DNA from: Hoeflea sp.
Lineage (GTDB): Bacteria > Pseudomonadota > Alphaproteobacteria > Rhizobiales > Rhizobiaceae
Length of the DNA: 64,000 nucleotides
Assembly (NCBI RefSeq): GCF_002733955.1
Contig: NZ_NVXQ01000001.1
Span: forward strand, 186,001 to 250,000
Direction of reading: 5' to 3'
Shown here one piece after another: positions 9,781 to 54,613 of the stretch. The notes beneath the pieces are model-generated. The model was not told the origin of the DNA. It ran no database searches and worked only from the letters and a program-made list of their open reading frames with translations. The first letter of the stretch is position 1. Every line of letters begins with the position of its first letter. The position numbers and the translations under genes were made by a program.

Positions 9781-11499
9781 ATGAAGAAGATCCGCTGTGC
9801 CATCTACACACGGAAATCATCGGAGGAGGGGTTGGACCAGGAGTTCAACTCCCTCCATGCCCAGCGGGAAGCCTGTGCCGCCTACATCGCCAGCCAGAAG
9901 CATGAGGGCTGGGTGGCATTACCCGAGCACTATGATGATGGCGGCATCTCCGGTGGCACGTTGGAAAGGGCCGAGCTAAAGAAACTGCTACAGCATGTCG
10001 ATGAGGGATTGGTTGACCAGATCGTTGTCTACAAGATCGACCGGCTTACTCGTTCCCTTGCTGACTTCGCCAAGCTGGTCGATCGGCTGGATGCAGCCGA
10101 TGCTTCCTTCGTGTCTGTGACCCAATCCTTCAATACCGCGACCAGCATGGGGCGGTTGACGCTCAACGTGCTTCTCTCCTTCGCCCAGTTCGAACGCGAA
10201 GTGACGGCGGAGCGCATCAGGGACAAGATCGCGGCTTCCAAGAAGAAGGGGTTGTGGATGGGGGGCACCATCCCCTTGGGCTATGAGCCGGATGGGCGGA
10301 CATTGAAGATTGTACCGGAGGAAGCTGAGACAGTCAGAACGCTCTATGATCTCTACCTTAAGCATCGTTCGATCCTCGCGGTGGTGGATCACGCCAACAG
10401 GCTGGGGTTGCGTGGCAAGGCAAAGGCTAGGAAACGGAAAGAGGTCAACAAGCGGTCTGACGAAGATGGGGCCGACGCCGCAACGCATTCTATCAATCCG
10501 GGTGCTTGTGGTGTCACCTTCGAACGCGCAGCACTTCACTACCTGCTGACCAACCCGGTCTATGCCGGTCGCATCCGGCATAAGGAGACAATCCACGAGG
10601 GGCAGCATCCGCCAATCATCGATCCGGATGTTTGGGTTCGGGTCCAGGAGCATATGAAGGAAAGTGCCGGCCGAAAGCGTGGTGAGGGGAAGGATGGGTC
10701 AATCATCAGTCCTCTTGCCGGCACGCTTGTTGATGAGACCGGTGACAAGCTTACACCGAGCCACGCCAGCAAGAAGGGCAAGCGCTACCGCTATTACGTC
10801 TCAAATCGGCTGCTCAACACTGCCGGGAAAAACGAAAGCAACACAAAAACCGGCGGCTGGCGGCTGCCTGCCAAGGCGCTTGAAGATCAGATCGCCAAGG
10901 CAACCTTGTCCCACCTTCGCAATCGGCTTCCTGTCGATCTGCTGATCAATCCCGCGGCTGAGGCAATGTCCAACATTAGTAGCCACCTCGATCTGCTGGA
11001 TGCGCAGTCGTCCACAAAAGGTCCGAAAAGCATCCTGTCCTGCATCGAAAAGGGAACCGTCAGGCCAGGTGCAATCGAGATCAGCCTCAATCCCGAGGCG
11101 ATCGCCGACACAATAGCGATCTCGGAAGACGAGCTGAACCAGGATGGTCTGGTGCTCAGACTGCCGTTCCAGTTCAGAAAGCGTGGAGTTGAAACGAAAC
11201 TCACGATCGGGTCGGACACTTCGAAACCAGCCGACACCACCCTGATCCGCAGCATCGCCAAGGCGCATCAGTACTACGATGCAATCAAGAACGGTCGGAC
11301 ATTTGAGGAGATCGCGGAAAGCGAAAACCTCTCCAAGCGACGGATCATGCAGGTGATCGACCTGGCCTTCCTCGCCCCGGACATCGTCAAGCTCATCGTC
11401 CAGGGTGACCAGCCCGATGGCCTTACCGCGAAATGGCTTGGCATCAATCCGCTGCCCTCGGACTGGCAGGCCCAACGGCGCATCCTTGCGACTCTCTGA
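9781..11499 (+). CDS. Large serine recombinase, cassette 1
   Basis: A 572-residue site-specific recombinase. The resolvase/invertase catalytic domain covers about residues 1-150: YTRKSSEEG holds the nucleophile (Ser13 expected), with YKIDRLTRSL and the FAQFEREVTAERIRDKI helix. A recombinase (PF07508) domain follows (about 165-300; GIPLGYEP-like GTIPLGYEP, then LLTNPVYAGRIRHKE). The usual Cys-rich zinc ribbon of large serine integrases is not obvious. The C-terminal third ends in a helix-turn-helix-like FEEIAESENLSKRRIMQVI. It is about 90% identical in the catalytic domain to the cassette 2 copy. It probably mobilises the surrounding island or its own cassette. Confidence 0.93.
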   Translation: MKKIRCAIYTRKSSEEGLDQEFNSLHAQREACAAYIASQKHEGWVALPEHYDDGGISGGTLERAELKKLLQHVDEGLVDQIVVYKIDRLTRSLADFAKLVDRLDAADASFVSVTQSFNTATSMGRLTLNVLLSFAQFEREVTAERIRDKIAASKKKGLWMGGTIPLGYEPDGRTLKIVPEEAETVRTLYDLYLKHRSILAVVDHANRLGLRGKAKARKRKEVNKRSDEDGADAATHSINPGACGVTFERAALHYLLTNPVYAGRIRHKETIHEGQHPPIIDPDVWVRVQEHMKESAGRKRGEGKDGSIISPLAGTLVDETGDKLTPSHASKKGKRYRYYVSNRLLNTAGKNESNTKTGGWRLPAKALEDQIAKATLSHLRNRLPVDLLINPAAEAMSNISSHLDLLDAQSSTKGPKSILSCIEKGTVRPGAIEISLNPEAIADTIAISEDELNQDGLVLRLPFQFRKRGVETKLTIGSDTSKPADTTLIRSIAKAHQYYDAIKNGRTFEEIAESENLSKRRIMQVIDLAFLAPDIVKLIVQGDQPDGLTAKWLGINPLPSDWQAQRRILATL

Positions 11500-11582
11500 T
11501 TGAACACCAAACCCCAAATACCCCAAGAACCCCGATGACCTGATGATGCTCTTTCGGCAAACTGTCAGCCCCAAATTGGCCG

Positions 11583-11636
11583 ACTGAGACTTTCGGCGTT
11601 TCAGGGGCCGGGAAAAGACTAATATCCGGTCTCAGT
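11583..11636. repeat. Inverted repeat downstream of recombinase 1
   Basis: ACTGAGAC (11583-11590) pairs with GTCTCAGT (11629-11636), outer span 54 bases. The same 8-bp arms with the same 54-base span lie after recombinase 2 (54405-54458). Both are preceded by CAAACTGTCAG. It is a candidate recombinase-binding or attachment site, or a transcript-end structure. Confidence 0.6.
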
Positions 11637-11915
11637 CACACGAGTGCGCTTGTAAGCCATTGAAATATAGCCGCAATCCGAGCGAGAAAGTAAATCAGAT
11701 CAAAAACTTAAAAAGAGTGGCTGTGCAAATTTTCCTGCGCGAACCAGTCTCTTGGTTTGAGTGGCGAAAAGCGGGAGAAAACGCTAACCGTCGCTCAGGC
11801 GATTACCTAGATTAAGTTGCAATTTCAAAGGGATAAATGGTTTCGACCCGACGATGCCCGGTCAGTGGAAGCGACCAAAGGGCGAAGTCGGTGCGATCCT
11901 AGCACGGTGTATGTA

Positions 11916-43952: not shown

Positions 43953-44723
43953 ATGACGAAAATCATGGAAGGCGCGGAAGCGTTTCGCTTCGAAGCCGAA
44001 GGCCGACCCGCGGTGCTGGTGTTGCACGGCTTTACAGGCTCGACGCAGAGCATGCGCTACCTTGGCGAGGAGCTTCATCGCAGGTTTGGGTTCCATGTCT
44101 GTGGACCGCGGCTTGCCGGGCACGGAACGTCGCCCGACGACATGGCGACCACAGGCTTCCTCGACTGGCTGGGAACGGCGGAAGCGGCGCTCAGGGAAAT
44201 GGCCGCTACGCATCGGAAGGTCTTCGTCACCGGACTATCAATGGGGGGCACGCTCAGCCTCAATCTGGCGGCCAGGTTTCCAGACCTGGTTGCCGGAATC
44301 ATTCCGATCAACGGATGCGGCGGCAGGCTGAGCGCCGAGATGTCGGAGCTGGTACTGGCCAACGATGCTCCAGAGCGCGTGCCGGGTATCGGCTCCGACA
44401 TCAAGGCGGCGGGCGTCGCCGAACTCGCCTATTCGGAAGTTCCGGTCAGCTGCGTACGGGAGGCAAACGCGCTGATGGGAGCTACGGGCAACCTGCTCGG
44501 CAAGATCTTGTGCCCGACGCTGGTCATCCAGTCTCGCGAGGACCATGTCCTGCCGCCCTCGAACGGTTCCCTGATCCTGCAAAGCATCGGGTCGCGCGAC
44601 GCCAGAATCCTGTGGCTCGAAGACTCCTATCACGTCGCGACACTGGACAACGACAAGGACCTCATCGTCGAGCGGACAGGCAGGTTCATTTCGGAAATCG
44701 CAAGCGATGGCGGAGATTCATAA
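43953..44723 (+). CDS. Alpha/beta hydrolase, Est30-like carboxylesterase
   Basis: A 256-residue esterase. The ATG at 43953 follows AGGAGGGAG; the open frame upstream is a shadow of the permease. It has LVLHGFTGS (oxyanion region), nucleophile GLSMGG, acid in QSREDHVLPP and His in DSYHVATLDND, the Est30/monoacylglycerol-lipase pattern. As the last gene of the importer operon it probably acts on the imported compound in the cytoplasm; there is no signal peptide. Confidence 0.88.
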   Translation: MTKIMEGAEAFRFEAEGRPAVLVLHGFTGSTQSMRYLGEELHRRFGFHVCGPRLAGHGTSPDDMATTGFLDWLGTAEAALREMAATHRKVFVTGLSMGGTLSLNLAARFPDLVAGIIPINGCGGRLSAEMSELVLANDAPERVPGIGSDIKAAGVAELAYSEVPVSCVREANALMGATGNLLGKILCPTLVIQSREDHVLPPSNGSLILQSIGSRDARILWLEDSYHVATLDNDKDLIVERTGRFISEIASDGGDS

Positions 44724-45180
44724 TACGGACGCCAGAGTTCAAGGGTAACCTGAAAGTCACGATCCGCCGATAGTTGGCTGTCGTGTCGGCGTTTTGGAGA
44801 TCCACCAGGTCAGTGGTGGTGACCAATAGAGGGGGCGCAATGCTGCTGTTCCCCAAGAAGAGCCGAACTTCCGCTTCTGGCTAAATGCAGGGTTTGCCTG
44901 AACATTCGAAATTGGGGCGCAATGCGGACTGACTGTTCGTACCGAAGGCTGCCAGTCAGCTTAGGGGCCGGGAGCGGAATGGCAGGTTTTGGAACTGGAG
45001 GAGGAAATAGTTGCCATAAAGCACGGGCAGCCACCTTCATGACTGCTTCGCGAGCTCATTGCGGTCACTCGTGACCTATCGACTTCTCCCAATTAGCTGT
45101 CATTGGACAGAGGCGGTGACTAGGTTCTGCAATATGATGGAATCAAGGGACTAACGAAGCAGCAAGAGGTTCTGAGGGTC
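44724..45180. other. Intergenic region before the defence block, repeat copy R2
   Basis: No gene is seen in this 457-base gap. It holds a small hairpin (CCACCA/TGGTGG, 44802-44819) without a T-run and repeat copy R2 at about 44908-44995. It marks the change from catabolic to defence genes. Confidence 0.5.
44908..44995 (+). repeat. Degenerate intergenic repeat, copy R2
   Basis: It shares GGGGCGCAAT and TTAGGGGCCGGGAGCGG with the copies at 2797 and 46922; the best match is to 46922-47025 (TTTGGGGCCGGGAGCGG). Confidence 0.45.
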
Positions 45181-46032
45181 ATGGTATCGATTGGCGTTGC
45201 AAAGGGTGCGGATACTGTTGAGATAGCCGGGCTTGGCGTTACGATTGCTGAGCCATTTGAGCTTCGACCAGGCGTGACGCTGATCCCCGGAAGCCCAGTC
45301 GCTGACCTCGATGAAGCTGCGAAGCACTCTATAGACTTCATTGACTACGCCGCTGTTGTGCGAAACCGGCCCTACGCCACTGTCACCATCCGAGTACAGG
45401 AAAACGAAGGCGGCAAGAAGTTGGTCGAGAGCGCTTGGAATGCACTCTGGAGCTTCCATCTGCTGTCGCTGGCTGCGCGGCGCCCATGCTGTTCACTGTA
45501 TGCGGTTTGCCGGGGCTGGGAAGATGTCGCCATATCGGCGGCAAATCGGAACATCATCTTCAATCCGTTCGGCCCGGCCGAGATTGGAGCAGCAAGCTTG
45601 CAATGGATGAAGGATAACGACGCTCGCTTCCATACCCTTATTGCCAATGGGCCCTTCAACACTGCCATGCGCTGCTACGGCAATTCTCACTACCTGTTTG
45701 ACCATGACATGCGGGTCATGTTGCTGTGGTCAGGTATCGAAGGGTTGCTGTCAGTCGACGCAGAACTGACCCGTCGTATCGCACTTTATGCGGCGATCAT
45801 GCTCGCGGGCACACCCGAGGAAAAGGTGGCCCACTTCGGCCGGGTAAAGAAAGCTTACGCCATTCGGTCCAAGGCCGTGCATGGCGGCGGCGCTACACAG
45901 GCTCAACTTGAGCGCGGATATGCAGAAGCCAGCGATATACTGCTCATCCTCTTAAGCAGGTGTGTGGAGCTGGGCCGAGTGCCGACAGCCAAGGAGCTCG
46001 ATTCCTTGGCTGCCAGCGGGAGTGTCGTTTAG
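45181..46032 (+). CDS. ApeA-like HEPN-domain protein
   Basis: A 283-residue protein; GAGGGTC precedes the ATG. The C-terminal 130 residues (MLLWSGIEGLLSVDAELTRR, then KKAYAIRSKAVHGGG) form an ApeA-like HEPN domain with the Rx4H motif RSKAVH, the RNase signature of the superfamily. The N-terminal half is beta-rich and unassigned. HEPN RNases of this kind act in phage defence and toxin systems. It lies 87 bases before a second HEPN-like gene and near a Hachiman pair. Confidence 0.75.
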   Translation: MVSIGVAKGADTVEIAGLGVTIAEPFELRPGVTLIPGSPVADLDEAAKHSIDFIDYAAVVRNRPYATVTIRVQENEGGKKLVESAWNALWSFHLLSLAARRPCCSLYAVCRGWEDVAISAANRNIIFNPFGPAEIGAASLQWMKDNDARFHTLIANGPFNTAMRCYGNSHYLFDHDMRVMLLWSGIEGLLSVDAELTRRIALYAAIMLAGTPEEKVAHFGRVKKAYAIRSKAVHGGGATQAQLERGYAEASDILLILLSRCVELGRVPTAKELDSLAASGSVV

Positions 46033-46119
46033 TTCAGAAGCAGCGCGACGAGGACGCTGGCGGCTATGGTGCCGAGCATGCGATAAAACTTAGGATAGGA
46101 GGGCGGAGCGAGGTTCAAG

Positions 46120-46818
46120 ATGACTCAGTACGATTTTGCGAAGGTGACGGCCGAGCTGCCCATCCTGCGGGACTTCATCGACTTCGTGAACAAGCAGTCC
46201 GCCGTTTACATGGATAGTTTGGCGGGATTCGAAGGCAATACTGTGCGCATCGGGCGGCAGGTCCATCGGGTCACCCGCCCAGACCATATCGAGGTGAAAG
46301 ACGGCAAAAACGTCGTGGTATGGTCCAGCGCAGAGGACCCGAGCCAACCAGACGTCATCCTCTCCACGATCCGCCGAGCGCCCGATTATCTAACGGACAA
46401 TTCCCACGGCGGCTTTAATGAGCAGCAGTTGTGCGCGTCCATCATCGTTTTCATGTTTGCCTATTGGGATGAGGAGGTCCGTCCCGCCATTGCCCGAGTC
46501 CGGGGTGTTGAGCCGAACTCCATCCAACTCGATGCCCTAGGGGACCTGCGCATCCTACGGAAGGCCGCTATCCATGCCGGTGGCACCGTCACCGCGACGG
46601 AGCACGCCAAGCTAAAAAAGATGGCAGACTTGGCGAAGCCTGGATCGCGATTAGTCCTGACTCATGACCAAATGCACCGCATTTTCGTCTTGGTAAAGCA
46701 GGCTATCGGCGAAATCATCCTGCACTACACTGGGGAACTTCCCGGCGCCCCATCGGCTGATGAGATTGTGGGGATCGCCATCCAGGACGCGGGATCGCGC
46801 AAGGGGAGAGCGTTTTGA
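46120..46818 (+). CDS. Second HEPN-like protein with an Rx4H motif
   Basis: A 232-residue protein of no clear family. GDLRILRKAAIHAGG carries the Rx4H motif RKAAIH inside a helical stretch (IVFMFAYWDEEVRPAIARVRG), as in HEPN proteins. The N-terminal 80 residues are unassigned. GGAGCGAGG precedes the ATG. It may be the partner of the HEPN protein encoded upstream; the two could form one system, perhaps linked with Hachiman. Confidence 0.6.
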   Translation: MTQYDFAKVTAELPILRDFIDFVNKQSAVYMDSLAGFEGNTVRIGRQVHRVTRPDHIEVKDGKNVVVWSSAEDPSQPDVILSTIRRAPDYLTDNSHGGFNEQQLCASIIVFMFAYWDEEVRPAIARVRGVEPNSIQLDALGDLRILRKAAIHAGGTVTATEHAKLKKMADLAKPGSRLVLTHDQMHRIFVLVKQAIGEIILHYTGELPGAPSADEIVGIAIQDAGSRKGRAF

Positions 46819-47324
46819 GCGGGCGAGCCATGCTGTGCCTATGTTAGCTTGAGCGAAAAGCTTGACACAAGCGGACAGTCCACAAACCATCCCGTCAGGG
46901 CCATCGCAGTTCTTACGCAGAACGGCAGCTTTCGAGAAACCGGCGGACTGACTTAAATGGCCGACATGGGGGCGCATTCCCGTCCGGCTTGTTTGGGGCC
47001 GGGAGCGGTTGGGCAGCTCTGGGCACCGAATGATATAAAACAGACATTCGGCGCTCCGCCATGCCAAAATCTCACCTTGGCCTTGAGCAGTCTGCATGCT
47101 CTTACCGCCAAATTTCGACGAGCTCAAATTCATGCTGTCGCTAATCGCTAGCTCGTGCCTGCACGACAGAATGCCTTGATAGATTTTATCCGCCTGTCGA
47201 GTGATCGTTACAGCTAAACTGGATTATTGTTTGGATTCGGCATTCTTAAATGTCGAGAGGCTAGTTATTAAAGTTTTCGGCACGTAATAGTAACGTTAAA
47301 CACTTGTGGCACAGAGGATTAGGC
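46819..47324. other. Gap upstream of hamA with repeat copy R3
   Basis: No gene is seen. Repeat copy R3 occupies 46922-47025. From about 47160 the sequence turns AT-rich, probably the hamA promoter region; no convincing -35/-10 pair stands out. Confidence 0.5.
46922..47025 (+). repeat. Degenerate intergenic repeat, copy R3
   Basis: It shares GGGCGCATTCCCGTCCGGCT and the GGC-GCTTTC-GAAACC lead with copy R1, and GGGGCCGGGAGCGG with copy R2. It links the two other copies as one family. Confidence 0.5.
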
Positions 47325-48290
47325 TTGACCGAAACGAACGCATTGTCGCCGCTTTCCTTAGCAGACTTTAAGCAGGCGATCGGGTCCAAGCCCAACACCC
47401 TCGAGGTTCACCTCGACTTGGTGGAGCGTGACGTCGAGATCGCGGGTTGCAAGGTCCGCATTCACTGCCATTGCCTTAAGGTGGACGCTGACGGACGCGT
47501 GAGCGCCGCGCGGCTCGCGGAGTTCATCCGAACTGCGGTGATCGACTATGCGATCCCGCATGAGTCCCGTCAGCGCGCGAAGGAGCGGGACGACCGAGAA
47601 GGTGGTTTCGCCGCCACGATCGAACTCTATCATCGCGCGCTTGGTATGTTCACCGATCTGAAAACGTCCGGCGAGGGTGGCGAACTCCTCCTTTATCTGC
47701 TTGCCGAGCGTTATCTGGGTTTGCCGCAGATCCTTTGTAAGATGTCGCTCAAGACTAGCGCGCAAGTGCATTATCACGGCGCCGACGGCGTATATGCCAA
47801 CGTCGACGAAGATGGCGTGCTGAATCTGTACTGGGGCGAGTCGAAGATCCATTCGGATCCAACCAAGGCGATCCGCGAGTGCCTCAGCTCATTGAAGCCG
47901 TTTCTCGACGAGGAAGATGGGGAGGCGGCAAAGCGCGAACGTGATCTCGTGCTGCTCAGCGAGCGAGCCGATCTCGGCAAGCCCGAACTCAACTCTTCGT
48001 TGCGCCGCTTCTTTGACCAGACGGACCCGCTCGTGAAGAGGAAGCGGTATCGCGCGGTCGCCCTGGTCGGCTTCGATAGCGGCGATTATCCCGCCGCGGG
48101 CGGGAAGTGTGGCGCAAACGACATCGTGGACGCTTCGAGGGAGGCGCTCAACAAGTGGTCCAAAAATGTTGGGAGCCGGCTGACCATCGAGAAGCTGACA
48201 GATTGCCAGATAGAATTCCTCTGCCTGCCGCTTCCTGACGCCGAGGCCTTCCGCAGTGCTGTGCTGGCCTCTCTGGGATTGGCCAAATGA
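47325..48290 (+). CDS. hamA: Hachiman antiphage nuclease HamA (DUF1837)
   Basis: A 321-residue protein. The TTG at 47325 follows GAGG by seven bases; a TTG at 47304 is less likely. The nuclease core reads GEGGELLLYLLAERYLGL, then QVHYHGADGVYANVDEDG, then LNLYWGESKIH: the Glu, Asp and E-x-K of a PD-(D/E)xK site as in DUF1837/HamA. Its stop overlaps the HamB start (ATGA), the usual Hachiman order. Known Hachiman systems use HamB to sense damaged or foreign DNA and release HamA nuclease. All key residues seem present, so it is probably active. Confidence 0.93.
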   Translation: MTETNALSPLSLADFKQAIGSKPNTLEVHLDLVERDVEIAGCKVRIHCHCLKVDADGRVSAARLAEFIRTAVIDYAIPHESRQRAKERDDREGGFAATIELYHRALGMFTDLKTSGEGGELLLYLLAERYLGLPQILCKMSLKTSAQVHYHGADGVYANVDEDGVLNLYWGESKIHSDPTKAIRECLSSLKPFLDEEDGEAAKRERDLVLLSERADLGKPELNSSLRRFFDQTDPLVKRKRYRAVALVGFDSGDYPAAGGKCGANDIVDASREALNKWSKNVGSRLTIEKLTDCQIEFLCLPLPDAEAFRSAVLASLGLAK

Positions 48291-50914
48291 GCGAGGAAGA
48301 ACTCATCGCTTGGCTAATGGCAGAAGGCGTGGCCGCCGATCTCGGCCTGCTATCGCGGGTCAATGCGCTCCAAGAGCTCGAAAACGTGGAACCGGTGGAG
48401 TCCATTGGCAAGGCGTTGATTGCCATCGATTGGAAACGGCTGCTGTTCGCCGGCAGCATCCTGGCCCGCTCCGAAAGCCGACGTCCTCGCGAAGCGGCGC
48501 TGTTGATTGCGACCTCCGCAATGACGTTGGCGGAGCGTGGTCCGACGCGGGATGCGGCGGCATTGCTGTTCGAGCAGTTGTCGAACAGGCTGGCGGTCCT
48601 GCTCGCGCAGCGTAGGAACGAGGTGGGGCCGGGTCTAGATGCACGCCTAGGTGTCGGTGCCCTGCTGGAATTGACTCGAAACCGCCTCAAGAACTCGGTG
48701 GTACTCGAGGCAGACGGGGCGCTCATGGAGGTCAACGCCTTCCAGCGGTCCTTCTGGACCGGCGCGCAGGACGATGGGAGCTGGGTGTCCGCATCGGCAC
48801 CGACCGCATGCGGAAAGACATATCTGGTGCTGCAGTGGCTGTTGGACCAAGTGCGTGCGGAGCGGGCCCGGATGGTGGTGTACCTCGCTCCTACGCGGGC
48901 GCTGGTGAGCGAGACTGAAACGAACCTCCGGAACATTTTGTCAAGTGCAGGCATCGGCACGGATCAAATGCGGGTCAGTTCGCTGCCACTGATCGACGAG
49001 TATTTGGCCATGCGGGACGGTGGTCCCTCGCTGATCGCTGTCTTCACCCAAGAGCGGCTGCACCTCTTTGCAAATGCGCTGTCCGACGAGATGGAAATCG
49101 ACCTCATGGTCGTAGACGAAGCTCATAAGATCGGTGACACCAAACGAGGGGTGATCTTGCAAGACGCGATTGAGCGCGTGGTTCGGGCCAGCCCAAAGGT
49201 TCGGGCAGTATTCATCAGTCCAGCGACGCAGAATCCGCAGACCTTGCTGGAAGATGCTCCGACATTCGCCGATCGCCGCGTTGTCGAAAGCGATGCACCG
49301 ACGGTGTTGCAGAACGTTTTGTTTGTCCGGCAGGTTAAGCGCCAAACGACCAAGTACAAACTGGCCGTGCGGCGCGGCGACGAGCCTGACGACGTCGGCA
49401 TCCTGAGCCTGCCGGACCGGCCGATAGGCCTTCGGAAGAGGGTGGGGTTTATTGCGGAAGCACTGACAGGTCAGCGGTCAGGTACCCTGATTTACGCCAA
49501 CGGTGCTGACGAGGCGGAAAAGATCGCATTTTTACTGAACCAAGGTTCGCCAAAAGGGGCTGTCGACCCAGAGTTGGCGGCCCTCGCCGATCTTTCGCGA
49601 AAGGGTGTGCATCAAGACTACCTGCTCGCGCCGCTCGTTGAACGTGGCGTCGCGTTTCACTACGGTAACATGCCGTCCCTATTGCGTTCGGAGATCGAGC
49701 GGCTTTTCAAATCAGGAAAGATTCGCTTCCTGGTGTGTACATCGACCCTAATCGAGGGTGTTAACCTCTCGTGCCGAATGATCGTGCTCCGCGGCCCGAG
49801 GAAGGGAAGCGGCAAGCATATGTTGGCGCACGACTTCTGGAATTTGGCGGGTCGTGCAGGTCGATGGGGTGACGAGTTCCAAGGCAAGATCGTTTGCATC
49901 GATCCGCACGACGACAAAGCGTGGCCAATAGGAGTGCCCAAGCGTGCGCGTTACGAAATCAAGCGCGAGACAGACGCGGTGATGGAGGAGCCGGAGGCGA
50001 TTCTCCGCTTTTTGAGAGAGCGCGCGAGCCTGTCCATGGAGGAGGTAGGCCGCGCTTCCAAGCTCGAACAGGTCTCGTCATATCTCATCTCGACATTTTT
50101 GCGTTCCGGCTCTGTCTCCGACGCCGCGTTCGCAAAGAGACATGATGCCAGTTTCGTCGCAGAACTGGAGGTGGTGCTCGCTAAGCTGTGTGAGGCTATT
50201 CGACTGCCTGCGACACTGGTTGCACGGCATCCGGGAGTCAGCGCCGTCGGAATGCAATCCCTTTTCGAGTTTTTCGGCCGGCATTCAGGCGAACCCGAGA
50301 ACTTGATCCTCGCGGCCACCGAGGACGACGAGGCTATCGATTCCATGATGTTCGTCATGAAGGCGATTAACGACCACCTATACCCGGCCTTTAAGCCGGA
50401 TGAACTGTTGTACGGTCATGCGGTGACCGTTCAACGGTGGCTCCGCGGTTGGTCCCTTGCCCGCATGATCAAGGCACGGATCGAGAACCTTCGGCGAAGC
50501 GAGAAGGCTATCAATGTGCCGAAAGTATGCCGCCAGACGATGGAGATGGTTGAGCAAACTGCACGGTTTGCCGCTCCGAAGTACATTGCCGCTTACATGG
50601 ATGTCTTGAAGATCCACCTGAATGGAGTCGGACGAGCCGATCTCCTCCGGGAAAACTTCGACATCGGACTGGCTCTCGAGTTCGGCATCTCGACCACGAC
50701 GCTGCTATCGCTGATGGAGCTAGGGCTTTCGAGGATGAGCGCCGTCGCGTTGTACGAGGTGATCGCAATGGACGACTTGGACCAGGACGCGTGTCGCGAC
50801 TGGATGCGTGCCAACGCGGACGCTCTGGAAGGTGCCGGAATCCCTTCAATCATCGGGCGTGAGTTGCGGGAGAAGCTACTCGGCGAGACACCGCCAGTTC
50901 GCCCGCTGCAGTAA
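48287..50914 (+). CDS. hamB: Hachiman antiphage helicase HamB
   Basis: An 875-residue SF2 helicase. The N-terminal 165 residues are helical. The helicase core follows: Walker A SAPTACGKTY (near residue 185), motif Ia YLAPTRALV, motif II VVDEAHKIGD (DEAH), motif III ISPATQNP, and motifs V-VI TSTLIEGVNL and NLAGRAGRWGDEF. The C-terminal 300 residues are helical and specific to HamB. It is coupled to hamA. It is expected to hold HamA in check and load on DNA ends. Confidence 0.93.
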   Translation: MSEEELIAWLMAEGVAADLGLLSRVNALQELENVEPVESIGKALIAIDWKRLLFAGSILARSESRRPREAALLIATSAMTLAERGPTRDAAALLFEQLSNRLAVLLAQRRNEVGPGLDARLGVGALLELTRNRLKNSVVLEADGALMEVNAFQRSFWTGAQDDGSWVSASAPTACGKTYLVLQWLLDQVRAERARMVVYLAPTRALVSETETNLRNILSSAGIGTDQMRVSSLPLIDEYLAMRDGGPSLIAVFTQERLHLFANALSDEMEIDLMVVDEAHKIGDTKRGVILQDAIERVVRASPKVRAVFISPATQNPQTLLEDAPTFADRRVVESDAPTVLQNVLFVRQVKRQTTKYKLAVRRGDEPDDVGILSLPDRPIGLRKRVGFIAEALTGQRSGTLIYANGADEAEKIAFLLNQGSPKGAVDPELAALADLSRKGVHQDYLLAPLVERGVAFHYGNMPSLLRSEIERLFKSGKIRFLVCTSTLIEGVNLSCRMIVLRGPRKGSGKHMLAHDFWNLAGRAGRWGDEFQGKIVCIDPHDDKAWPIGVPKRARYEIKRETDAVMEEPEAILRFLRERASLSMEEVGRASKLEQVSSYLISTFLRSGSVSDAAFAKRHDASFVAELEVVLAKLCEAIRLPATLVARHPGVSAVGMQSLFEFFGRHSGEPENLILAATEDDEAIDSMMFVMKAINDHLYPAFKPDELLYGHAVTVQRWLRGWSLARMIKARIENLRRSEKAINVPKVCRQTMEMVEQTARFAAPKYIAAYMDVLKIHLNGVGRADLLRENFDIGLALEFGISTTTLLSLMELGLSRMSAVALYEVIAMDDLDQDACRDWMRANADALEGAGIPSIIGRELREKLLGETPPVRPLQ

Positions 50915-51006
50915 AACAGTTAGATATCGACCCCTTACGAGCACCGGGCGGGCGTTGAGTTTTCGAACGACAAGTGTGGTACGCTTTTGGGCAAGAGGAT
51001 TGGCTT

Positions 51007-51330
51007 ATGGGTAAGGCACGGCGGATTACGCTCGCCACGCGATCGTTTGATAAGGTTGGAGATGGTACGGCGTTCTTTGCAGCCATACTAAAGCGCTATG
51101 AAATCGGCGAACGAGTCAGCAGCGAAGACGCAGCTGATTTGTCTGCGCTACTTGATCGCCACGATGAGCTTGAAGAAAAGGTTGGGACTGGCATAGTGGG
51201 CTTTGAGGTAAACATCCCGCCAAAAGATGTCCCACAATTTTCAAAGAGATGCTTCTGGGTAATTAGAAGCGATGGCAGCAAAATCGACTTTTCGATCGGT
51301 CACTGCCTCAAGCCAAAACCGTATGACTGA
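51007..51330 (+). CDS. DUF3223 family protein
   Basis: A 107-residue protein. The ATG at 51007 follows GAGGAT; a longer frame to 50974 is not supported. It reads SFDKVGDGTAFFAAILKRY, LLDRHDELEEKVGTGI and VIRSDGSKIDFSIGHCLKP, the DUF3223 (plant DCL-like) pattern. DUF3223 proteins occur in phages and near mobile elements and nucleases. It lies 92 bases after hamB. Whether it is part of the defence system is not known. Confidence 0.75.
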   Translation: MGKARRITLATRSFDKVGDGTAFFAAILKRYEIGERVSSEDAADLSALLDRHDELEEKVGTGIVGFEVNIPPKDVPQFSKRCFWVIRSDGSKIDFSIGHCLKPKPYD

Positions 51331-51672: not shown

Positions 51673-51725
51673 TCCCTCAGTGCGAGGCCGGATAGTCCGG
51701 TCTCTGAAGCTGAGTGGAGATTATG

Positions 51726-52082
51726 ATGAACACCCAAATGACGAAAAGTGACGCCAACCAGAATAGGGGCGTGCAATCGGCTGCAACGAGTAGACCTGGG
51801 CAGGCCACGGGAGCATCCCGTGCCGGAGCGAGCAAGTCGGGTGCGAAAAGCAAGCAGGACCAATTGATCGCTTTGCTTTTAAAACCAAACGGTGCGCGGA
51901 TCTCAGTGATCATCGAACGTCTGGGCTGGCAGGCCCATACTGTTCGGGCGGCGGTGTCAGGACTACGCAAGCGCGGCTTTGATGTTGCGACTTCGAAGTC
52001 AGCGAAGACCGGCGAGATTGTCTATGCCATCAAGATACGGCCCGGAACGGAAAGCGGCGAAGCTAGCGAGGCATCGTCATGA
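51726..52082 (+). CDS. DUF3489 family protein, cassette 2
   Basis: A 118-residue paralogue of the protein at 8975. The ATG at 51726 follows GGAG by six bases and aligns with the GTG of cassette 1. The C-terminal fold is well kept (LLLKPNGARISVIIERLGWQ, then GLRKRGFDVATSKSAKTGEI), while the N-terminal tail differs. It is coupled to the DUF2924 gene by an ATGA overlap, exactly as in cassette 1. Confidence 0.85.
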   Translation: MNTQMTKSDANQNRGVQSAATSRPGQATGASRAGASKSGAKSKQDQLIALLLKPNGARISVIIERLGWQAHTVRAAVSGLRKRGFDVATSKSAKTGEIVYAIKIRPGTESGEASEASS

Positions 52083-52528
52083 AGCGGGAGGTCATTGATC
52101 TGCCATCCTCCTGCGCCGCCGCATTCGAAACGTTGGATCGCGAAGCATGCATCGATCAGTGGAGGCGGACGATTGGCGGGCAATCGCTCAGATATGTCTC
52201 GGTGCAGTTCATGCGGAGAGCGCTGGCCTATGAAGCGCAAGTGAAAGTCCATGGTGGTCATTCAGCCGCGGTTCGAAAGGCTCTCAAAGCGGCTTTGAAA
52301 CAGGATCAAAAGCCTGTCGGGAAGAACGGGAAGTGGAAGCCACCTTCGCAATCTGTTCAGCGCCCCGGTACTCATCTGGTGCGCGAATGGAACGGTCGTA
52401 CCTATCAGGTCGAAGTGTTGGATGATGGGTTCCAGCTTGACGGAAAGCGGTACCGCTCGCTCAGCGCCATCGCCCGGAAGATCACTGGCGCCCATTGGTC
52501 CGGCCCCCGGTTCTTCGGATTAGGATAA
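52079..52528 (+). CDS. DUF2924 family protein, cassette 2
   Basis: A 149-residue paralogue of the protein at 9328, the same length. HLVREWNGRTYQVEVLDDGF and GKRYRSLSAIARKITGAHWS are almost unchanged between the copies, whereas residues 1-25 differ. It starts in the DUF3489 stop and is followed three bases later by the recombinase. Its strong C-terminal conservation hints at a binding surface shared by both systems. Confidence 0.85.
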   Translation: MKREVIDLPSSCAAAFETLDREACIDQWRRTIGGQSLRYVSVQFMRRALAYEAQVKVHGGHSAAVRKALKAALKQDQKPVGKNGKWKPPSQSVQRPGTHLVREWNGRTYQVEVLDDGFQLDGKRYRSLSAIARKITGAHWSGPRFFGLG

Positions 52529-52531
52529 GCC

Positions 52532-54304
52532 ATGAAGAAGATCCGCTGCGCCATCTATACACGAAAATCCTCGGAGGAGGGCTTGGATCAGGAGTTCAAC
52601 TCGCTCCATGCCCAGCGGGAAGCCTGTGCCGCCTACATCGCCAGCCAGAAGCATGAAGGCTGGGTTCCTCTGCCCCAGCACTATGATGATGGCGGCATAT
52701 CCGGTGGCACGCTGGAGAGGGCAGGGCTGAAACGGTTGCTGCAGGATGTCGATGAGGGACTGGTGGACCAGATCGTCGTCTACAAGATCGACCGGCTGAC
52801 CCGGTCACTTTCCGACTTCGCTAAACTGGTCGACCGGCTGGATGCAGCCGACGCTTCTTTCGTTTCGGTCACGCAGTCGTTCAACACAGCCACCAGCATG
52901 GGGCGGCTGACGCTCAATGTGCTTCTGTCCTTTGCCCAATTCGAACGCGAGGTCACCGCCGAGCGTATCCGCGACAAGATCGCGGCATCGAAGAAGAAGG
53001 GGCTCTGGATGGGTGGGACTATCCCGTTGGGATATGAGCCGGATGGACGGTCTCTGAAGATCGTGCCGGAGGAAGCCGAAACCGTCAGGACGTTGTTTGA
53101 TCTATATTTGCGGCACGGGTCCATCAAGGCGGTCCTGGAGCATGCTGATCGATTGGGCCTGCGCAGCAAGGCGAGGATCAAGAAGCCGACGAGGATGCGA
53201 ACCGGAAACGTCGAGCAGGCTAGCGTAAAAGGTGAAGCTGAGATCGATGAACGTCGGGCGGATGCTGTCACGAACCCGGATGCGATCAACGTTGAAGGGC
53301 ATCACCGGAATGGCGGCAATGTTCCGTTCGAACGGGCGGGCCTCCACTATCTGCTGACCAATCCTGTCTATGCCGGCCGCATTCGCCATCGTGCCCTCAT
53401 CCACGAGGGTCAGCATCAGGCAATCATTGATCCGGAAACCTGGGAAAGAGTGCAGTTACATCTCAAGGACGGTGCTGGTCGCAAACGGGGCAAGGTCGGT
53501 GGCAGCGCGAACGCCTCCTTGCTGGCGGGCAAGCTGGTGGATGAGTCCGGCAATCGAATGACCCCAAGCCACGCCAACAAGAAGGGCAGGCGCTATCGCT
53601 ACTATGTCTCCAATCGGATGATCAACGGTGGGGGCATGGATGCAGGCTCGAACACCAGCGGCTGGCGCTTGCCTGCCAAGCCCCTGGAGGAGCAGATCGC
53701 CGGTGCGGTGCTGGCGCATTTGCGCGATAGGCTCCCGGTCGATTTGCTGGTCAGTCACTCCACGGATGCCATAGCAAGGCTCGGAAACGTTTTGGATATC
53801 CTCACTGCCCAAGCACGCATGAAAGGTCCGAAAGTGATCCTGTCTTGCATGGAGCGTGCGACCATAAAGCCTGGTGCTGTGAACATCGTTCTCGATCCGG
53901 AAAGGATCGCCGATTGCATGGAAATCTCAAAGGGTGAACTGTACCCTGAAGTTCTCTCGTTCATCACCCCGTTCCAGTTCAGGAAGCGTGGTGTCGAAAC
54001 CAGGTTGGTGATCGGTACCGCATCACCGAAAGCCGTTGATGCCACGCTGATCCGAAGCATCGCCAAGGCGCATCAATACTACGAAGCGATCAAGCAGGGT
54101 CAGACGTTCGAGGAAGTAGCCGCGACGGAAAACCTCTCCAAGCGCCGCATCCTGCAGGTGATCGATCTGGCGTTCCTGGCGCCAGACATAGTCAGGTCGA
54201 TGATACATGGCGACCAGCCTATTGGTCTGACCGCAAAGTGGCTCGGGCTCAATCCGATGCCATCTGACTGGCAGGCCCAGCGGCGCATTGCCGCCGCTGT
54301 CTGA
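52532..54304 (+). CDS. Large serine recombinase, cassette 2
   Basis: A 590-residue recombinase, 18 residues longer than copy 1. The catalytic domain (YTRKSSEEG with Ser13; YKIDRLTRSL) is nearly identical to copy 1, while residues 200-250 (KARIKKPTRMRTGNVEQAS) are divergent and longer. The recombinase domain and the C-terminal FEEVAATENLSKRRILQVI helix-turn-helix are kept. No Cys-rich zinc ribbon is obvious. It ends 236 bases from the tRNA-Gln gene. It may recognise different sites from copy 1. Confidence 0.93.
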   Translation: MKKIRCAIYTRKSSEEGLDQEFNSLHAQREACAAYIASQKHEGWVPLPQHYDDGGISGGTLERAGLKRLLQDVDEGLVDQIVVYKIDRLTRSLSDFAKLVDRLDAADASFVSVTQSFNTATSMGRLTLNVLLSFAQFEREVTAERIRDKIAASKKKGLWMGGTIPLGYEPDGRSLKIVPEEAETVRTLFDLYLRHGSIKAVLEHADRLGLRSKARIKKPTRMRTGNVEQASVKGEAEIDERRADAVTNPDAINVEGHHRNGGNVPFERAGLHYLLTNPVYAGRIRHRALIHEGQHQAIIDPETWERVQLHLKDGAGRKRGKVGGSANASLLAGKLVDESGNRMTPSHANKKGRRYRYYVSNRMINGGGMDAGSNTSGWRLPAKPLEEQIAGAVLAHLRDRLPVDLLVSHSTDAIARLGNVLDILTAQARMKGPKVILSCMERATIKPGAVNIVLDPERIADCMEISKGELYPEVLSFITPFQFRKRGVETRLVIGTASPKAVDATLIRSIAKAHQYYEAIKQGQTFEEVAATENLSKRRILQVIDLAFLAPDIVRSMIHGDQPIGLTAKWLGLNPMPSDWQAQRRIAAAV

Positions 54305-54458: not shown

Positions 54459-54539
54459 TCACCAAGCGCTCTGCTAACGTGCGGAAAGAACTCAGATATT
54501 GGCGACGGAAATCGACAGACCGGAAATGCGGAAGGTGAT

Positions 54540-54613
54540 TGGCTGGGGAACCTGGATTCGAACCAGGACTAACGGAGTCAGAGTCCGTGGGTCTACCGTT
54601 AACCTATTCCCCA
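54540..54613 (-). tRNA. tRNA-Gln(CTG)
   Basis: The minus strand folds as a cloverleaf: acceptor TGGGGAA/TTCCCCA, D arm GGTTAACGGTAGACC, anticodon loop CTCTGAC with anticodon CTG, T arm CCTGGTTCGAATCCAGG, discriminator G and encoded CCA. It lies between the recombinase cassette and the conserved chromosome, so it may mark the island edge. The gene itself looks intact. Confidence 0.95.

Follow-up and report, generated by a model that had tools for sequence, protein, structure and literature searches.

Two adjacent genes lie upstream of a Hachiman locus in Hoeflea sp., and the question they raise is whether they form one system or two. Both are found in a window of 64,000 nucleotides, the whole stretch of DNA that was analysed, where they are read from the plus strand with a gap of 87 bases between them. 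A sequence-only reading had noticed an R-x4-H motif in each of the predicted proteins and had suggested that the pair might act as a two-component RNase module. Both open reading frames and their motifs (RSKAVH, residues 229-234 of gene 1; RKAAIH, residues 147-152 of gene 2) were recovered, and PADLOC places HamA, HamB and HamC behind the pair, as had been proposed (Table 1). The explanation that we favor is that genes 1 and 2 are two cargo genes unrelated by descent, each probably a single-gene HEPN RNase effector of the abortive-infection type, gathered on a serine-recombinase defence island beside tRNA-Gln together with a type II Hachiman. Directly observed are both reading frames, the conservation of Arg-x4-His, the island context and the absence of joint occurrence in the other loci and genomes examined; confidence in the whole explanation is moderate, mainly because HEPN fold and function are predicted.

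Table 1. Features of the two-gene locus and of the neighbouring mobile island (positions in the window).
Feature	Position	Strand	Description and evidence
Gene 1	45181..46032	+	283 aa; N-terminal half unassigned, C-terminal half of predicted HEPN type; ORF list
Codons R229-SKAV-H234	45865..45882	+	Predicted RNase motif of gene 1; R/S/H identical in 8/8 relatives
Gene 2	46120..46818	+	232 aa; helical with insert, predicted HEPN type; 10 close and 3 distant enterobacterial plasmid relatives
Codons D117-x3-R121	46468..46482	+	Putative counterpart in gene 2 of the HEPN Ex3[KR] motif; conservation across relatives
Codons R147-KAAI-H152	46558..46575	+	Predicted RNase motif of gene 2; R/H identical in 11/11 and in 3 enterobacterial plasmid proteins
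HamA (Hachiman nuclease)	47304..48290	+	Neighbour; PADLOC E 1.8e-129; Pfam HamA E 2.8e-53
HamB (Hachiman helicase)	48287..50914	+	Neighbour; PADLOC HamB2, 1228 bits
HamC (DUF3223)	50974..51330	+	Neighbour, marks Hachiman type II; PADLOC HamC2 E 5e-35; Pfam DUF3223 E 4e-19
DUF3489 protein	51714..52082	+	Mobile island; Pfam E 4.5e-19
DUF2924 protein	52079..52528	+	Mobile island; Pfam E 3.8e-37
Large serine recombinase	52532..54304	+	Mobile island; Pfam Resolvase E 5.2e-36, Recombinase E 2.4e-12
tRNA-Gln (ctg)	54540..54613	-	Right edge of variable region; ARAGORN

According to PMC3710099 (section 6), HEPN domains are marked by Rx4-6H, in which the Arg is followed by a polar residue, and by an acidic-x3-basic motif (Ex3[KR]). 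The mere presence of Rx4H is close to chance, as at least one such string occurs in 36.8% (gene 1) and 43.2% (gene 2) of composition-preserving shuffles (20,000 for each protein), and gene 2 contains three additional R-x(4-6)-H strings besides R147-H152. It is the invariance of the Arg and the His across relatives, not the occurrence of the string, that lifts the motif above chance in both families. Judged by these residues, genes 1 and 2 are best read as predicted HEPN domains.

The conservation of gene 2 was followed in an alignment of 11 sequences, 10 of them full length and one a fragment, comprising the window protein and its 10 close relatives (G105, G139, G112, L007-L010, G434, the viral contig L031 and G646). 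R147, H152 and R121 are identical in all 11, and at position 117 ten sequences have Asp and one has Glu. Residue 148, which follows R147, is Lys in seven sequences, His in two, Asn in one and Val in one, so that the form R-[KNH]-x3-H is present in 10/11. Among the full-length proteins H152 represents the sole invariant His of eight, and R147 is one of five invariant Arg of 16. Conservation extends beyond R147, H152 and R121, as 34 positions are invariant across the 10 full-length proteins. In addition, three distant relatives on enterobacterial plasmids, with 18-20% identity overall, keep W116, R121, G141-D-L-R144, R147 and H152, with a His immediately after R147; this distant form was absent from the E. 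coli genomes and phages searched. Relatives of gene 2 are spread over Alphaproteobacteria, a planctomycete and enterobacterial plasmids.

A structure predicted from five gene 2 sequences (mean pLDDT 65.4, pTM 0.61) contains four long helices (residues 6-37, 101-128, 138-151 and 182-204). The model places D117 and R121 on the second of these and the Rx4H motif at the end of the third, with an insert, poor in pLDDT at 38-55 and 63-98, between the first and the second. The N-terminal parts of both proteins had been described as unassigned; this applies to gene 1, but not to gene 2, in which the badly modelled stretches (38-55, 63-98 and 208-232) fall mainly in the insert. The HEPN-like character claimed for the pair is supported by residue conservation and not by fold: searches with the gene 2 model at this mean pLDDT (Foldseek against PDB, VIA and BFVD) returned no HEPN structure among the matches listed, an outcome that is compatible with an HEPN fold. 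The gene 2 profile gave a single, irrelevant match in PDB (E 0.53). For two gene 2 relatives the top Pfam matches belong to different HEPN families, both below threshold (HEPN_RiboL-PSP, E 0.22; HEPN_Swt1, E 0.19). At threshold, no Pfam, PADLOC or NCBIfam model matches genes 1 and 2 or their relatives, and none named HEPN lies above the cut-off. Across Pfam, PADLOC, NCBIfam and PHROGs, gene 2 exceeds the threshold of no named model, and its family is nameless in these libraries.

One full-length relative of gene 1, about 47-48% identical, lies on an Agrobacterium plasmid (L011); a second, in G108 (L018), is broken over two frames, and several further relatives share just the C-terminal half. 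Across eight aligned C-terminal halves the Tyr, R229, S230 and H234 of the YxxRSxxxH stretch are identical in all, and Ex3[KR] can be read by eye from the alignment in five; a weak HEPN-only fragment from G154 (L027) was kept out of this alignment. Two gene 1 relatives carry the annotation 'HEPN domain-containing protein'. Three of the four plasmid records matching gene 1 were fetched, the Novosphingobium record being left out. The structure model, built on a single sequence, is unusable (pLDDT 37.7). No PDB match was obtained with the first gene 1 profile; with a profile of the HEPN half, two ApeA chains were returned (E 0.19 and 0.38), aligned co-linearly at IEALL-like and YxxRxxxxHG stretches and below significance. 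ApeA, as described in PMC3710099, joins a beta-rich N-terminal part to a C-terminal HEPN domain. Since 20 apolipoprotein E chains score alike, none of them significantly, the ApeA match is a lead only, and gene 1 differs in having some 140 aa before its HEPN half, compared with about 300 aa of ApeA-NTD1, and in matching no Pfam model. Another family close to gene 1 is phrog_28161, a phage family with no function assigned, which matches residues 134-273 of gene 1 (E 5e-25) and, more weakly, the relatives in L011, L014, L029, L013 and L030. Only the HEPN half of gene 1 is covered by this family, to which the window's own genome alone gave a match in a search of 249 genomes, and none of 14 control genomes did. 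Neither protein has a match in phage records, where the HEPN half of gene 1 retrieves just three matches of E 8 or worse, and gene 1 was not found in viral contigs. On a Nostoc plasmid (L013:4407-8241), a protein sharing the HEPN half of gene 1 has behind it a helicase that carries a Zn-binding domain of MrfA type (MZB). The broken relative of G108 (L018:7970-9598) lies just after a fragment resembling the window's recombinase.

The setting of the two genes is that of a mobile region whose right edge is tRNA-Gln, as indicated by the island genes, the base composition and a break in similarity at the tRNA. G+C is 0.54-0.62 across 44.5-54.7 kb, as compared with 0.62-0.66 outside. The window shares a gppA-like gene with 17 other genomes of the genus; in all four of these that were fetched, similarity extends across the gene and ends at 54531-54539, where the 3′ end of the tRNA-Gln lies. 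On the left side, an esterase at 43956-44723 has no close counterpart in any of these 17 genomes, so that it does not fix the left edge. No close copy of the whole island was found on plasmids, to which matches are short. Directly downstream of gene 2, HamA, HamB and a DUF3223 HamC make up a complete Hachiman type II as delimited by the authors of PADLOC, a type for which phage protection has been shown with another member (PMC8565338). In PADLOC neither gene 1 nor gene 2 is matched by a Ham family; they are neighbours of this system, not components. Near the Agrobacterium relative of gene 1, GajA and GajB (Gabija) and SduA (Shedu) are found within about 8 kb. Taken from these neighbourhoods, Hachiman here and Gabija with Shedu there, a defence role of genes 1 and 2 is plausible.

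The surroundings of gene 2 relatives differ from locus to locus, and include an IclR regulator (L015), LepA (L017) and a TRAP transporter (L025). In Pantoea the gene next to the relative carries the annotation of a retron HNH endonuclease, and in Stakelama (L010) the relative has a HamB-like helicase on its downstream side. On the viral contig L031, the relative lies between an NlpC/P60 tail gene and a DUF1833 gene, both on the opposite strand, and the tail operon to which it is antisense includes tape-measure and tip proteins. A neighbour scan covered 82 proteins from eight loci, picked from 160 ORFs with some frames changed by hand and with L031 left out. Against PADLOC at 1e-10, mad3 was hit in two and SspA, DndA, PDC-M72A, mad2 and LmuA in one each, the hits not being assigned to single proteins; no Ham family appeared among the 82. 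Because the neighbours differ and PADLOC matches among them are few, gene 2 is for the most part a single gene that roams and is not tied to defence islands. The Stakelama locus (L010:4270-10154) also holds, five bases before the gene 2 relative, a protein of 275 aa whose N-terminus is hydrophobic; the relative is followed by a 282 aa protein without family match and the HamB-like helicase of 1078 aa; these genes are possibly an undescribed helicase-based system.

Against these data three other explanations have to be weighed. According to the one proposed at the outset, genes 1 and 2 would form a single two-component RNase module, for instance as the two unlike subunits of an HEPN hetero-dimer, or as toxin and controller. 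Their common strand and short spacing favor it, and no terminator-like site is found on the plus strand between them (shuffled sequences give similar counts of such sites), so that they may be co-transcribed here. The sequence-only reading had itself proposed a search for conserved co-occurrence, with genes that never recur together as an outcome against a module, and this is the outcome that was obtained. Among 21 loci of 8.5-20 kb each (13 fetched for a gene 2 relative and eight for a gene 1 relative) and checked by tblastn with both proteins, none has relatives of both; for L027, L029 and L030 tblastn detects neither gene, a weak likeness to gene 1 having been seen only in the 397-genome search with that gene. 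Since loci of this length cover short distances, co-occurrence over longer ones was judged from genome searches. Within 151 genomes of the family gene 2 occurs in four and gene 1 in two, and within 397 genomes of the order gene 1 occurs in five and gene 2 in three, one of which (G190, E 5.3e-5) was dropped as a chance match, judged by eye, within the long frame of an unrelated-looking protein. In both samples, which genome handles suggest to be the same for the two genes, only the window's own genome (G000) has both. Moreover, gene 2 relatives persist without gene 1 from Alphaproteobacteria to the planctomycete and the enterobacterial plasmids, and the two families lack mutual similarity: common descent was rejected, as profile comparisons gave a probability of 0.1 to 0.24%, and the two of three alignments that put the motifs in register are not significant. 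A single module is therefore quite improbable. A rare or young pairing is possible, because the full-length relatives of gene 1 number only two, the plasmid copy and the broken one; a hetero-HEPN enzyme confined to this lineage is much less likely than gene 2 belonging to a family that works alone. The case shows that adjacency in a defence island need not mean one system.

It is likewise improbable that gene 2, or both genes, serve Hachiman as an accessory, for example as an extra effector unleashed by HamAB. This would account for gene 2 lying next to HamABC here and for the Stakelama relative, which precedes, at a distance of some 0.3 kb, two paired genes, the second of them coding for the HamB-like helicase (PADLOC E 4.3e-34, with PDC-M23B almost equal at E 8.9e-33). 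Against it, tblastn with HamA and HamB matches none of the other gene 2 loci among the 21, the neighbour scan is devoid of Ham families, and the Agrobacterium relative of gene 1 is found near Gabija and Shedu, not Hachiman. Somewhat less remote, yet still unlikely, is a gene 2 family of non-RNases, in which the Arg and the His would serve structure or binding and the gene would be a phage or plasmid regulator or an exclusion factor. Such a role agrees with the lack of confirmation of HEPN from library and fold searches of gene 2, with conservation that is not confined to the catalytic motif, the 34 residues being equally invariant, and with the one relative inside a phage tail operon. What argues against a non-RNase role is that the only invariant His of the family sits, in all but one sequence, in a motif of the form described for HEPN (PMC3710099, section 6).

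The reading preferred here, that of two independent HEPN effectors, has its closest working parallel in Tha, which is a single prophage gene of Staphylococcus phage 80alpha coding for 301 aa, with a C-terminal HEPN domain, R-x4-H and an N-terminal part without known domain (PMC11087260). In the experiments described there, the catalytic His is required for protection, Tha is activated by tail proteins, RNA is cleaved, and growth of the infected cell ceases or the cell dies (PMC11087260). The likeness concerns a single gene of similar size with R-x4-H in a domain of HEPN type, predicted for genes 1 and 2; Tha is borne by a prophage, and gene 2 too has a relative in a viral contig. Membership of genes 1 and 2 in the Tha family was rejected, the best BLASTP E values being 6.3 and 11 and the profile-comparison probabilities 0.14% and 0.07%. 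By analogy, each protein would fold as a helical HEPN domain and dimerise, and the two Arg/His pairs of the dimer would form a metal-independent RNase site. The enzyme may stay silent until the part outside the HEPN domain, i.e., the N-terminal half of gene 1 or the conserved insert of gene 2 (about 38-100), senses a phage cue; RNA would then be cut and the infected cell would stop growing or die, as with Tha. As systems, genes 1 and 2 would be of a kind already known, that of the HEPN single-gene effectors.

For gene 2 a more specific proposal can be made, which we regard as a realistic but tentative possibility: it may represent a family of anti-phage RNases that is as yet undescribed, in which a single gene encodes an HEPN enzyme and the conserved insert (R46-Q-V-x-R50 and D73-P-x2-P77) is the putative sensor; prophages, plasmids and defence islands would carry it in hosts ranging from Alphaproteobacteria to Planctomycetes and Enterobacterales. 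No paper on the pair or on the gene 2 family was found by title or abstract, which is no proof that the family is undescribed. The family keeps an HEPN-like core over wide distances and moves on phages and plasmids and, as no named model exceeds threshold, it would escape current defence finders. If gene 2 defends, it adds a small and easily tested single-gene system.

Further observations concern the DNA around the island. The pair is flanked by two copies of a degenerate intergenic repeat (44961-45002 and 46992-47033; 74% over 42 bases), which may be a dispersed repeat; additional degenerate copies are located at 2796-2872 and, with 77% over 92 bases, on another contig of this genome, C39. 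In L061, the tRNA-Gln is immediately followed by another recombinase-like match, and 102 bases of this locus are 96% identical to 11622-11723 of the window. Together with the break in similarity at the tRNA-Gln 3′ end, these matches suggest that 54531-54613 is a hotspot of integration and that the window has a second, related element. Window positions 10518-11723, which are similar (80-96%) to the DNA beside tRNA-Gln in L061, may be part of another recombinase element of the same kind.
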